This document shows positions 29,081 through 33,384 of a stretch of DNA of 64,000 bases, piece by piece. The DNA lies in contig NZ_AP018722.1 in NCBI RefSeq assembly GCF_004001325.1, positions 434,001-498,000 on the forward strand. Direction: 5' to 3'. Each line of letters begins with the position of its first letter. Within the stretch, counting starts at the first letter, position 1. A program made the position numbers and the translations under genes. The notes under the pieces are model-generated. The model was given only the letters and a program-made list of their open reading frames with translations, was not told the DNA's origin and made no database searches. This DNA is from Thiomicrorhabdus aquaedulcis (lineage in GTDB: Bacteria; Pseudomonadota; Gammaproteobacteria; Thiomicrospirales; Thiomicrospiraceae).

Positions 29081-30442
29081 TCAAGCGTTAATCAAATCTT
29101 CAATTTCGGCAACTTTTTGCCAAACCAATTCGGGATTGCCACGCGCTTCAATGTTTAAGCGCAGCAGCGGTTCGGTGTTTGAGCTGCGAATATTCATGCG
29201 CCATTCGCTAAACTCAAGGCTTAGGCCGTCGGTTTGGTCAAGGTGTGGATTTTGCGGGGCAAAATGGGCACGCACTCGGGCTAAAATGGCCGCGCTGTCT
29301 TTTACCGTGTAGTTAATTTCGCCACTGCACGGATAAGCAGCCATGCGCTGCGCCACCAGTTCGGACAGTTTTTTGCCGGTGGTGCTCATTAATTGAGCAA
29401 TCAGCAGCCACGGAATCATACCGCTGTCGCAATACCAAAACGTTTTAAAGTAGTGATGCGCCGACATTTCGCCACCGTAAACAGCGTCTTCTTTGCGCAT
29501 GCGCTCTTTAATAAAAGCGTGGCCGGTTTTGGATTGAATGGGCACGCCGCCGGCTTGTTCTACTTGTTCAATGGTGTTCCAGGTTAGGCGCGGGTCGTGG
29601 ACAATTTTGCCCCCGGGGTGTTTGGCCAACAGCGTTTCGGCCAGTAAGCCCACTAAGTAATAGCCTTCGATAAATTCGCCGTTTTCGTCAAATAAAAAGC
29701 AACGGTCAAAATCGCCGTCCCAAGCAATGCCCATGTCGGCGTGTTGCGCCACCACGGTTTGCGCGGTAATCGCGCGGTTTTCGATGAGCATCGGATTGGG
29801 TACACCGTGCGGAAAATCGCCGTCGGGTGCGTGGTGCAATGTGGTTACCTTAAACGGCAAATGGCTGGCCAAGGCATCAAACGTCGGGCCGGCCGCACCG
29901 TTGCCAGCATTAACCACGAGGTTAAACGGTTTTAAGCAGGCCTGGTCAACGTAGGTAAGCAGGTGGTTAATGTAAGCGTTTTTGCACGGGTTTAGGCTTA
30001 TTACGCCCACGTGTTCAGCGCTTTTTAACGGTGCAAATTGCTGGTTGGCAATGCACGCTTTCATTTCGTTTAACCCCGAATCGCCGCTGACGGGTCGCGC
30101 GTCGGCCGCCACCAGTTTCATGCCGTTGTAACCTTTGGGGTTGTGGCTGGCCGTGACCATAATGCCGCCGCTGGCGGCTAAATGGGCGGTGCCAAAATAG
30201 ACCTCTTCTGTGCCGCACAAGCCTATGTTAATTACGTCTACACCCGAATCAACCAAGCCTTGCATTAGAGCATTGGCGAGTTCTAAACTTTCTAGGCGAA
30301 TGTCGTAACCCACCACCACGTTGGCGGGGTGCAACTGGGTGGCAAACGCGCGACCAATTTGATACGCCAAGGTGGCATTAAGTTGTGCGGGCACTTGGCC
30401 ACGAATGTCATAGGCTTTAAAGCACGATAGGTCTTGGGTCAT
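29081..30442 (-). CDS. algC: Phosphomannomutase/phosphoglucomutase
   Basis: 453 residues, AlgC/ManB/CpsG family. The phosphoserine loop is TASHNPKGYNGMK with Ser99, the metal site is DGDFDRCF near residue 240, the sugar loop GGEMSAHHYF and the phosphate loop RSSNTEP. Interconverts hexose 6- and 1-phosphates for nucleotide-sugar synthesis. Upstream on the same strand are a UDP-sugar dehydrogenase homologue and pgi, so this is a sugar-phosphate block. A degenerate palindrome (29935-29949) is read as DQAC. Confidence 0.94.
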   Translation of the reverse strand: MTQDLSCFKAYDIRGQVPAQLNATLAYQIGRAFATQLHPANVVVGYDIRLESLELANALMQGLVDSGVDVINIGLCGTEEVYFGTAHLAASGGIMVTASHNPKGYNGMKLVAADARPVSGDSGLNEMKACIANQQFAPLKSAEHVGVISLNPCKNAYINHLLTYVDQACLKPFNLVVNAGNGAAGPTFDALASHLPFKVTTLHHAPDGDFPHGVPNPMLIENRAITAQTVVAQHADMGIAWDGDFDRCFLFDENGEFIEGYYLVGLLAETLLAKHPGGKIVHDPRLTWNTIEQVEQAGGVPIQSKTGHAFIKERMRKEDAVYGGEMSAHHYFKTFWYCDSGMIPWLLIAQLMSTTGKKLSELVAQRMAAYPCSGEINYTVKDSAAILARVRAHFAPQNPHLDQTDGLSLEFSEWRMNIRSSNTEPLLRLNIEARGNPELVWQKVAEIEDLINA

Positions 30443-30464: not shown

Positions 30465-30480
30465 TGACCAGGCCTGGTCA
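30465..30480. repeat. Dispersed palindrome copy, 16-nt perfect
   Basis: TGACCAGGCCTGGTCA upstream of algC; the first of two copies 55 bp apart in the same gap. Confidence 0.93.
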
Positions 30481-30520: not shown

Positions 30521-30532
30521 ACCAGGCCTGGT
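30521..30532. repeat. Dispersed palindrome copy (second in the gap)
   Basis: ACCAGGCCTGGT, flanked by TTTG and TAGA, between the ugd-like gene and algC. Confidence 0.9.
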
Positions 30533-30571: not shown

Positions 30572-31816
30572 TTAACGCCCAATGCCGTAGTAGTCAAAGC
30601 CGTACGATTTAACCCACGGTTTTTGATACAAATTACGGCCATCTAAAATAATTTTGGTGCGCATATTGGCCGACAATAGGTTCATGTCGGGTAACCAAAA
30701 TTGTTTCCACTCGGTCACTACGCACAAGGCATCGGCCTGTTCGGTGGCGGCGTACATGTCGGGACTGATGTGAATGCGCGCGCGCTGCTCGGCGGTTAAC
30801 TCGGTTTGCATCCACTGAGAAAAGTTGTCGTCTAATTTGGGGTCAAACACTTTAAGCGTGCAGCCTTGCGCCAAAAACGCCTTAATCAGCACCAAGCTGG
30901 GGGCGTTTTCGATGGAGTTCGAGTTGGGCTTGTAGCTAATGCCCCACAACGCCACGGTTTTGCCTTCTAGGTCGCAGTCAAAATGTTGCCAAAGTTTTCT
31001 AAACAACACCTCTTTTTGTTCCTTGTTAATGTCCAGCACCGACTGCAACAAGCTCGAATGCGAACCTGCCGACTGAATTAACGTCTGTGCGCGGCTTAAA
31101 TCGCGTTCAAAGTGGGTACCGCCAAAACCGATTCCAGGGTACAAATACGAAAAACCAATGCGACTGTCGGCTCCTAAACCTTGGCGAACTTCTTCAATGT
31201 CGGCGTTTAAGTATTCAGCCGCTTGCGCCAAGTCGTTCATTAACGAAATACGCGTGGCCAACATAGCGTTGGTAGCGTATTTGGTGAGCTCGGCCGATTC
31301 GGGTGACATTAAAATGGTCACGTCGCGGTTGCGGTTAAATGGCGCAAATAAGCGTTTAAACAGGTCAATAGCGTATTCGTTTTCACTGCCAATCACCAAA
31401 CGGTCGGGGCGTAAAAAGCCGCTGATGGCTTGACCTTCGGACGCAAAGTCGGGGTTAACCAACCACGGCATTTTGGCCAGTTCACCAATTTGACGCGGTG
31501 TGCCCAATGAAAAGTTAGAGCGAATAATCAAGCACGATTTAGGCGTAACGTAGTTGGCCAACAAACGCGCGTACTCTTTGCCTTTTGAGCATTCGTCGGG
31601 GTTAGAGGCAATAATATGCACCTTGGCGTCAGCGTCTAAGGTATCGCTGTAGGTTAAGCGTTCGGCCGCTACTTGGGCTTTTAACAACTTAACCAGGCCT
31701 GGTTCGGTGCGAGCCAAGTCGGGAGTGCCGATTAGTGTGACAAAATTTCCGGTTTCGGCTAAACAACCTGCGCACACCAACGAGCTAATTTCTGATCCAA
31801 ATACATTAATTTTCAT
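30572..31816 (-). CDS. UDP-glucose/GDP-mannose dehydrogenase homologue lacking catalytic Cys
   Basis: 414 residues from ATG 31816, whose ATGA overlaps the pgi stop. The fold matches UDP-glucose 6-dehydrogenase throughout: NPDFASEGQAISGFLRPDRLVIG, ESAELTKYATNAMLATRISLMNDL (Lys179 and Asn183 kept), GISYKPNSNSIENAPS. However, the catalytic motif GFGGSCFPKD is GFGGTHFERD, with His235 where the thiohemiacetal Cys should be. The N-terminal dinucleotide loop is also altered (VFGSEISSLV instead of GxGYVG). It is therefore unlikely to be a normal four-electron dehydrogenase; a two-electron, binding or regulatory role is possible. Confidence 0.85.
   Translation of the reverse strand: MKINVFGSEISSLVCAGCLAETGNFVTLIGTPDLARTEPGLVKLLKAQVAAERLTYSDTLDADAKVHIIASNPDECSKGKEYARLLANYVTPKSCLIIRSNFSLGTPRQIGELAKMPWLVNPDFASEGQAISGFLRPDRLVIGSENEYAIDLFKRLFAPFNRNRDVTILMSPESAELTKYATNAMLATRISLMNDLAQAAEYLNADIEEVRQGLGADSRIGFSYLYPGIGFGGTHFERDLSRAQTLIQSAGSHSSLLQSVLDINKEQKEVLFRKLWQHFDCDLEGKTVALWGISYKPNSNSIENAPSLVLIKAFLAQGCTLKVFDPKLDDNFSQWMQTELTAEQRARIHISPDMYAATEQADALCVVTEWKQFWLPDMNLLSANMRTKIILDGRNLYQKPWVKSYGFDYYGIGR
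31691..31704. repeat. Dispersed palindrome copy (in ugd-like gene)
   Basis: AACCAGGCCTGGTT, read in frame as EPGLV. Confidence 0.88.
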
Positions 31817-33384
31817 TTGTCTTGTTCCACTGTTTTGTTCCAAATGGCGTTAAGAATTCCGGCGGTTGAGCTGTCAAGACCGGTTACGTTTTGGGTTTGA
31901 ATGTTGTCTAAAATGCCCATGGCCAAACGTTTGCCCAGCTCTACACCCCATTGGTCAAAGGGGTTAATTTTCCAAATGACCGACTCGGTAAACACTTTGT
32001 GCTCGTACAACGCCACTAACATACCTAAATGATAGGCGTCTAATTTGTCCATTAACAAGGTGTTAGACACTTGGTCGCCGGGGTAAAACTGGTGCGGATT
32101 GTCCGAGGTTTGGCCAATCATTAACGCGCGGCTTTGCGCCAAACAGTTGGCAATGTTTAGATTGTGGTGGTAGGCCGAACGCTCGTTTTGCATGCTGTCT
32201 TCTTTAAACAAAATAAAGTCGGCCATGACTTTTTCGGTGCCTTGGTGCATTAGCTGATAAAACGCGTGCTGGGCGTTAGGGCCGACTTCGCCCCATAAAA
32301 TAGGGCAGGTGCGGTATTCGACCGTGGTGCCGTCGCGCTTGGTGCGCTTGCCGTTGCTTTCCATTTCAAGCTGTTCAAGATAGCTCGAAAAATACTTTAA
32401 GCGAGAATCGTACGGCAAAATGGCTTGAGCGGCGCGGTCTAAAAAGTTGGTGTTCCACACCCCAATTAAGCCCAGCAATACCGGGATATTTTGTGCAAAC
32501 GGCGTGTTTTTATAGTGTTGATCCATGGCGTACGCGCCGGCCAACATGTCTTTGTAACCCTGCATACCCAAGTGCAAGGCAATCGACAAGCCAATGCTTG
32601 ACCACAACGAAAAGCGTCCGCCAACCCAGTCCCAAAAATGCAACTGAAACTTAGGCAAAATGCCCCATTCGGTCATTTTAGGCACGTTGGTCGAGGCAGC
32701 AATAAAGTGGTGCATGGTCGCGTTTTCGGTTTTGGCGGCGCTTTGAATCCACTTTTTAGAGGTTTCGGCCAACGACAAGGTGTCAATGGTGGTAAACGAT
32801 TTAGACGCAATAATAAACACGGTGGTTTCGGGTTCTAGCTCGTTAAGCAATTCTTGTAACTGGTGCGCGTCTAGGGTCGACACAAAGTGAATGCCAGGCG
32901 CGGTGGGCAGTTTGTCGCCCTCTAACGCGCGGGTAATCATTAACGGCCCTAAATCACTGCCGCCCACGCCAATGTTAATTACGTCGGTAATAGGCTTGCC
33001 CGAAAAACCACGCAATTGGCCACTGTGTGCACAGTCTACAATGTGTTGCATTTTTTCCCATTGTTCGGCCACTTGCGGCATGGGGTTTTCGATGTTACGC
33101 AGTGCCGTGTGCAACGCCGCACGCCCTTCGGTAATGTTAATGGCTTCACCGCTGTACTGCTTTTCAATCCATTCATTTAACTCACTCTCTTTGGCCAGCT
33201 CAATTAACAGCTCTAAAATGGGTTGGTCAATTTTTTGTTTAGAGTAGTCAAACAACAAACCTGGCATGCGGGCGTGAAACTCCTCAAATCGATTTTGATC
33301 GGTGTCAAAAAAGCATTTTAGGTGTTTGTTCTGTGTGGGTTCAATGTGTTGCGTGAGTTTTGCGTATGCTTGGGTGTGAATCAT
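31813..33384 (-). CDS. pgi: Glucose-6-phosphate isomerase
   Basis: 523 residues. Interconverts glucose 6-phosphate and fructose 6-phosphate. Visible: INIGVGGSDLGPLMI, ASKSFTTIDTL, DWVGGRFSLWSSIGL with the active-site region, LLGLIGVWNTNF and WGVELGKRLA. The start is MIHTQAYAKL. Its last codons overlap the following dehydrogenase homologue, so the two are translationally coupled. Confidence 0.97.
   Translation of the reverse strand: MIHTQAYAKLTQHIEPTQNKHLKCFFDTDQNRFEEFHARMPGLLFDYSKQKIDQPILELLIELAKESELNEWIEKQYSGEAINITEGRAALHTALRNIENPMPQVAEQWEKMQHIVDCAHSGQLRGFSGKPITDVINIGVGGSDLGPLMITRALEGDKLPTAPGIHFVSTLDAHQLQELLNELEPETTVFIIASKSFTTIDTLSLAETSKKWIQSAAKTENATMHHFIAASTNVPKMTEWGILPKFQLHFWDWVGGRFSLWSSIGLSIALHLGMQGYKDMLAGAYAMDQHYKNTPFAQNIPVLLGLIGVWNTNFLDRAAQAILPYDSRLKYFSSYLEQLEMESNGKRTKRDGTTVEYRTCPILWGEVGPNAQHAFYQLMHQGTEKVMADFILFKEDSMQNERSAYHHNLNIANCLAQSRALMIGQTSDNPHQFYPGDQVSNTLLMDKLDAYHLGMLVALYEHKVFTESVIWKINPFDQWGVELGKRLAMGILDNIQTQNVTGLDSSTAGILNAIWNKTVEQDK

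Follow-up and report, generated by a model that had tools for sequence, protein, structure and literature searches.

Across 229 NDP-sugar dehydrogenases, 18 residues are invariant, Lys204, Asn208, Asp264 and Lys320 among them; Asp29, Thr83 and Arg327 bind NAD, and Lys204, Asn208, Lys320 and Arg244 contact the sugar nucleotide (PMC4794789). These enzymes (UDPGDH, UDP-ManNAcDH and GDP-ManDH) make up the TIGR03026 family. Dimer and active-site contacts were taken from work on human UDP-glucose dehydrogenase (UGDH; PMC3184952), and the roles of the catalytic motif positions from both papers. The nearest solved relative of the gene described here is the UGDH BceC of Burkholderia cepacia (PDB 2y0c/2y0d/2y0e), which was matched over the whole length at 36% identity (E ~1e-75).

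The window (the whole 64,000-nucleotide stretch of Thiomicrorhabdus aquaedulcis DNA that was analysed) carries a UGDH homologue, termed psiUGDH, with the three-domain fold and full-length homology of a UGDH and without the catalytic Cys and the NAD site (Table 1). The protein scored above the TIGR03026 nucleotide sugar dehydrogenase cut-off (225.7 bits vs 189.8). Each of the three UDPG_MGDP_dh Pfam domains was also matched, with only a low score for the NAD-binding domain (30.3 bits against a cut-off of 27). The AlphaFold model, for which a 36-row alignment was supplied as input, had a pLDDT of 90.5 and aligned with BceC and Porphyromonas UGDH with Z ~41 over 371-385 residues. The predicted three-domain fold is the same as that of BceC (Z ~40.5), with an N-terminal domain ~40 residues shorter.

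Table 1. Coordinates of psiUGDH, its sequence motifs and the adjoining genes in the window.
Feature	Coordinates	Strand	Details
psiUGDH, UGDH homologue lacking the catalytic Cys and the NAD site	30572..31816	minus	414 aa; ATG at 31816-31814, stop codon ends at 30572
Altered catalytic motif GFGGTHFERD, residues 230-239	31100..31129	minus	canonical motif GFGGSCFPKD
Altered nucleotide-binding loop GSEISS, residues 7-12	31781..31798	minus	replaces GxGYVG
Active-site Lys179 ... Asn183, retained (Lys204/Asn208 of S. pyogenes UGDH)	31268..31282	minus	each in 61/61 orthologues
Lys296, retained (Lys320 of S. pyogenes UGDH, contacts UDP-glucose diphosphate)	30929..30931	minus	61/61
DGRN motif of UDP-binding domain, retained, residues 392-395	30632..30643	minus	61/61 at all four positions
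pgi, glucose-6-phosphate isomerase, upstream and overlapping	31813..33384	minus	NF001211, 673 bits, cut-off 492
ATGA 4-bp overlap of pgi stop and psiUGDH start	31813..31816	minus	pgi stop at 31815-31813
Phosphomannomutase/phosphoglucomutase-like gene, next downstream of psiUGDH	29081..30442	minus	NF011943, 607 bits, below 801 cut-off

Sixty-one sequences of the psiUGDH clade were read and were aligned jointly with 39 Cys-bearing sequences; two of the 61 come from f102, another gammaproteobacterial family, and the window's own family contributed nearly one per genome. Among named organisms, the closest matches came from Thiomicrorhabdus (T. arctica, 66% identity). In the whole-genome collection, 58 of the 63 genomes of the window's family had a match. 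The five absences look like assembly gaps, since four of these genomes also lacked pgi and in the fifth pgi was cut by a contig end.

The altered catalytic motif, the altered GxGYVG loop and the retained Lys179 and Asn183, all reported in the first-pass annotation, were borne out by the ORF sequence. His235 of the window protein stands at the position of Cys260 (S. pyogenes) or Cys276 (human), and Asp239 is retained. The same annotation had asked whether the His was conserved as a clade feature, and had named close relatives with Cys as the sign of a local mutation. Cys was found in none of the 61 orthologues, against 39/39 of the canonical sequences, and the position was occupied by Ser (24), Asn (19), His (10), Tyr (5), Asp (2) or Gly (1). 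The conserved feature is thus the loss of Cys; because the position varies across the clade, the window His appears as one outcome of a released position and not as a conserved trait. The same variation led us to reject the idea that the His has taken over as nucleophile or binds a metal.

The most divergent clade member (L176:397-1695, genome G015) read GFGGVGFSEG, in which Gly replaces both the Cys and the Asp264 equivalent; this member may have decayed further. Outside the clade, Cys was also absent from a protein of an uncultured Oleispira MAG (L009:6001-7320, GYGGSFFPND, Phe at the Cys position) and from one of a Hydrogenedentota MAG (L019:5968-7263, GYGGLGLPKD, Gly at the Cys position). 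Since both retain the NAD-binding Asp29 and Arg327 and fall apart from the psiUGDH clade in the tree, Cys has been lost more than once, these two being separate losses.

The residues of the NAD site were lost almost without exception: Gly9 and Asp29 (NAD ribose) were found in 0/61 orthologues and Arg327 (pyrophosphate) in 2/61, and the Thr83 NAD loop was deleted in 61/61. No psiUGDH has Cys260, Gly9 or Thr83, and Gly12, Thr118 and Glu141 are unfixed, whereas all six were reported to be invariant in 229 sequences (PMC4794789). The change in the GxGYVG loop is real and belongs to a more extensive loss that takes in the whole NAD site. The UDP-sugar pocket was kept: Lys204, Asn208, Arg244 (the residue reaching across the dimer) and Lys320 were present in all 61 orthologues, as were Asn219, Gly257, Gly258, Asn287 and the Arg of DGRN, and the Asp264 equivalent was present in 60. 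Likeness to the TIGR03026 family thus extends to ~10 of the 18 superfamily-invariant residues and to the specificity positions of the UDP-glucose type (as opposed to the UDP-ManNAc and GDP-mannose enzymes), namely Leu211 (Leu in 53, Ile in 8), Phe142 (59/61) and Asp at index 391 (61/61). Of the columns invariant in canonical sequences, psiUGDH retained a smaller fraction in the NAD domain (0.46) than in the central (0.73) and C-terminal (0.79) domains.

Compared with BceC (deposited-chain numbering), Lys222, Asn226, Arg262, Lys339, Arg439 and Asp282 are retained in psiUGDH, and Cys278, Gly17, Tyr18, Asp38, the Thr94 loop, Arg346 and Lys127 are lost. Some residues of the sugar loop have drifted (Glu141 replaced by Asp in 39/61, Glu145 by Asp in 10, the equivalent of BceC Lys165 lost in all), and the affinity may have changed with it. 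From these residue patterns, psiUGDH is very probably not an NAD-dependent UGDH, and it probably binds UDP-glucose. The two-electron oxidation proposed for assay in the first-pass annotation is unlikely, because the entire NAD site is lost.

The dN/dS of psiUGDH was calculated for pairs unsaturated at silent sites (dS < 1.5, six pairs) and had a median of 0.047 (listed values from 0.017 to 0.09): the clade is under strong purifying selection. A tree was built in which the clade was compared with 21 Cys-bearing UGDHs, two atypical sequences and four dehydrogenases from further afield. The psiUGDH sequences formed one clade (support 100/100) under an approximate root, the distant dehydrogenases not forming one outgroup and one of them lying on a very long branch. 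The f102 sequences fell inside the clade, beside genus g5 (96/89), and this nesting suggests a transfer of psiUGDH between families. With a catalytic residue gone clade-wide and both the fold and purifying selection retained, psiUGDH has the attributes of a pseudoenzyme; no published description of a UDP-glucose dehydrogenase pseudoenzyme was found in a literature search that covered few subscription journals.

Translational coupling to pgi had been noted earlier, and the ATGA overlap was confirmed. In every relative, pgi is the upstream neighbour of psiUGDH; in 50 of 57 homologous loci the two genes overlap by 4 or 11 bp, and wherever the contig was long enough the order galU-pgi-psiUGDH was found across the family; BceC differs in lacking this setting. 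In the window genome galU lies at contig position 2026881, ~1.5 Mb away, with pgi and psiUGDH still joined, so galU adjacency is not essential. Downstream, most loci of the 23-member subclade that includes the window's gene have pmm (21 loci in total), and most others have pssA-leuA, identified by reading the sequence. The three f102 genomes with psiUGDH carry galU-pgi beside the gene; the other three have pgi without galU and no psiUGDH, and glgC was read nearby in two of them.

Among ~30 sampled loci of Cys-bearing UGDHs, none had galU-pgi beside the gene, and descent from an old galU-ugd-pgi operon is accordingly unsupported; at one such locus a 26% nucleotidyltransferase match lay 2.3 kb away. 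A single 943-codon open frame (L052:3789-6584) spans pgi and psiUGDH in MAG NP51, which is nearest to T. arctica; the frame arises from an A-run difference at the junction and is either a real fusion or an assembly error. As Rosetta-stone evidence this frame was set aside, since it rests on the A-run difference of one MAG.

Loss of the Cys and the NAD contacts, a retained UDP-hexose pocket and a fixed cassette with galU and pgi are together what would be expected if UDP-glucose were bound but not oxidised. With about evenly balanced confidence, we read psiUGDH as a pseudo-dehydrogenase that binds UDP-hexose without oxidation and probably acts as a regulator responsive to UDP-glucose or as a partner of Pgi/GalU. 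At the base of the clade, a UGDH ancestor would have lost the Cys and, with the GxG loop, the adenosine-ribose Asp, the Thr83 loop and the pyrophosphate Arg, its ability to bind NAD; it would have kept the UDP-hexose pocket of the central and C-terminal domains, including the Arg across the dimer. The homodimer would bind UDP-glucose, the product of GalU, and the bound state would be relayed to the operon partners, Pgi first and possibly GalU; in this way the UDP-glucose level could control flux among fructose-6-phosphate, glucose-6-phosphate and UDP-glucose. The regulatory output and its target are put forward tentatively, and the genes may be linked in an operon simply to be expressed together.

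A likeness may be proposed to OpgH (E. coli) and UgtP (B. subtilis) as UDP-glucose-binding reporters of carbon status. Those two are glucosyltransferases acting on cell division (PMC3723540, PMC5889556); they are likened without any claim of sequence relation, and a division role is not implied for psiUGDH. More speculative, though possible, is the full history: close to where the Thiomicrospira-type order arose, a UGDH would have been converted, once, to a UDP-glucose-sensing pseudoenzyme controlling Pgi and/or GalU, in a cassette passed on or inherited as a unit, also into the second gammaproteobacterial family, and serving autotrophs as a dedicated feedback switch where UDP-glucose synthesis branches off from gluconeogenic hexose phosphate. 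If the regulatory reading is true, psiUGDH would be a clean case of an enzyme turned metabolite sensor inside a small operon, in organisms whose control of carbon-storage and envelope flux is poorly known.

The main rival, itself unlikely, is a redirected enzyme that would bind a UDP-hexose and use Lys179, Asn183 and Asp239 for an NAD-independent reaction (e.g. elimination, epimerisation or hydrolysis). The near invariance of the Lys204, Asn208 and Asp264 equivalents, not strictly required for pure binding, would suit such an enzyme, as would the strength of purifying selection. However, the Cys position is free, the remainder of the catalytic motif (S-C-F-P-K) drifts, and no new invariant residue of catalytic type lies in the pocket among the residues fixed specifically in psiUGDH (A16, Q48, R189, Y224, L225, F231, R273, W276, Q317, M385).

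Less likely still, psiUGDH would have no role for a ligand and would have kept the UGDH fold only as a dimeric scaffold, serving Pgi (or GalU) as a structural or chaperone-like partner. Such a partner would fit the tightest genetic link, that with pgi through the overlapping start, its retention in the window although galU has moved, and the single open frame of the one MAG; it leaves unexplained why the UDP-glucose pocket (Lys320, Arg244, Lys204, Asn208, Gly257, Gly258) is invariant while the NAD pocket is free.

We regard as highly improbable a working NAD(P)-dependent dehydrogenase with a noncanonical cofactor loop that would perform the first two-electron oxidation only (alcohol to aldehyde). 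Asp264 and Lys204, residues of that first oxidation, are still present and the model still predicts a folded Rossmann-like domain, but Gly9, Asp29, Thr83 and Arg327 are lost in 59-61 of 61 orthologues, with the Thr83 loop deleted, and a change of dinucleotide would call for a newly conserved loop, whereas columns 9-12 are free.

A decaying gene or local mutation, to which the loss of several family-invariant residues might point, has a negligible probability and was ruled out by clade-wide conservation, intact frames in ~60 orthologues, dN/dS of 0.02-0.09, the invariant pocket and the fixed operon place, the five family genomes without psiUGDH also having pgi missing or cut. Of the first-pass proposal of a new or regulatory function rather than decay, the second half thus stands, and a regulatory role is plausible.

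In the complete genomes G026, G030, G032 and G062, psiUGDH is the only PF00984 protein; this excludes an obligate-subunit role in a real UGDH and makes a role as its regulatory subunit unlikely. Because the TIGR03026 cut-off is cleared, automatic annotation calls psiUGDH a nucleotide sugar dehydrogenase, and pathway reconstructions would assign UDP-glucuronate synthesis to these sulfur oxidisers, of which at least four with complete genomes have no intact superfamily member at all. Most genomes hold another PF00984 protein, the window's included, where it is an E. coli-type Ugd with intact Cys (GYGGYCLPKD; L182:5683-6984, C1 ~1054853-1056154).

Repeated sequences were observed in and around these genes. 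The palindromic 12-mer ACCAGGCCTGGT occurs in 24 copies in the window against 0.00 expected (e.g. 30467-30478, 30521-30532 and 31692-31703), and one copy within the psiUGDH gene encodes EPGLV. Genome-wide, 718 copies were counted (reversed control, 0); some congeners have 333-557 copies and in others it is near absent. It resembles a highly iterated palindrome. The E. coli-type Ugd of the window genome contains an in-frame insert with RHSGLDPESSAP, a peptide repeat also found in the neighbouring ORFs 461-1672 and 8488-9765 of L182, and this insert is like a repeated palindromic element inside genes.
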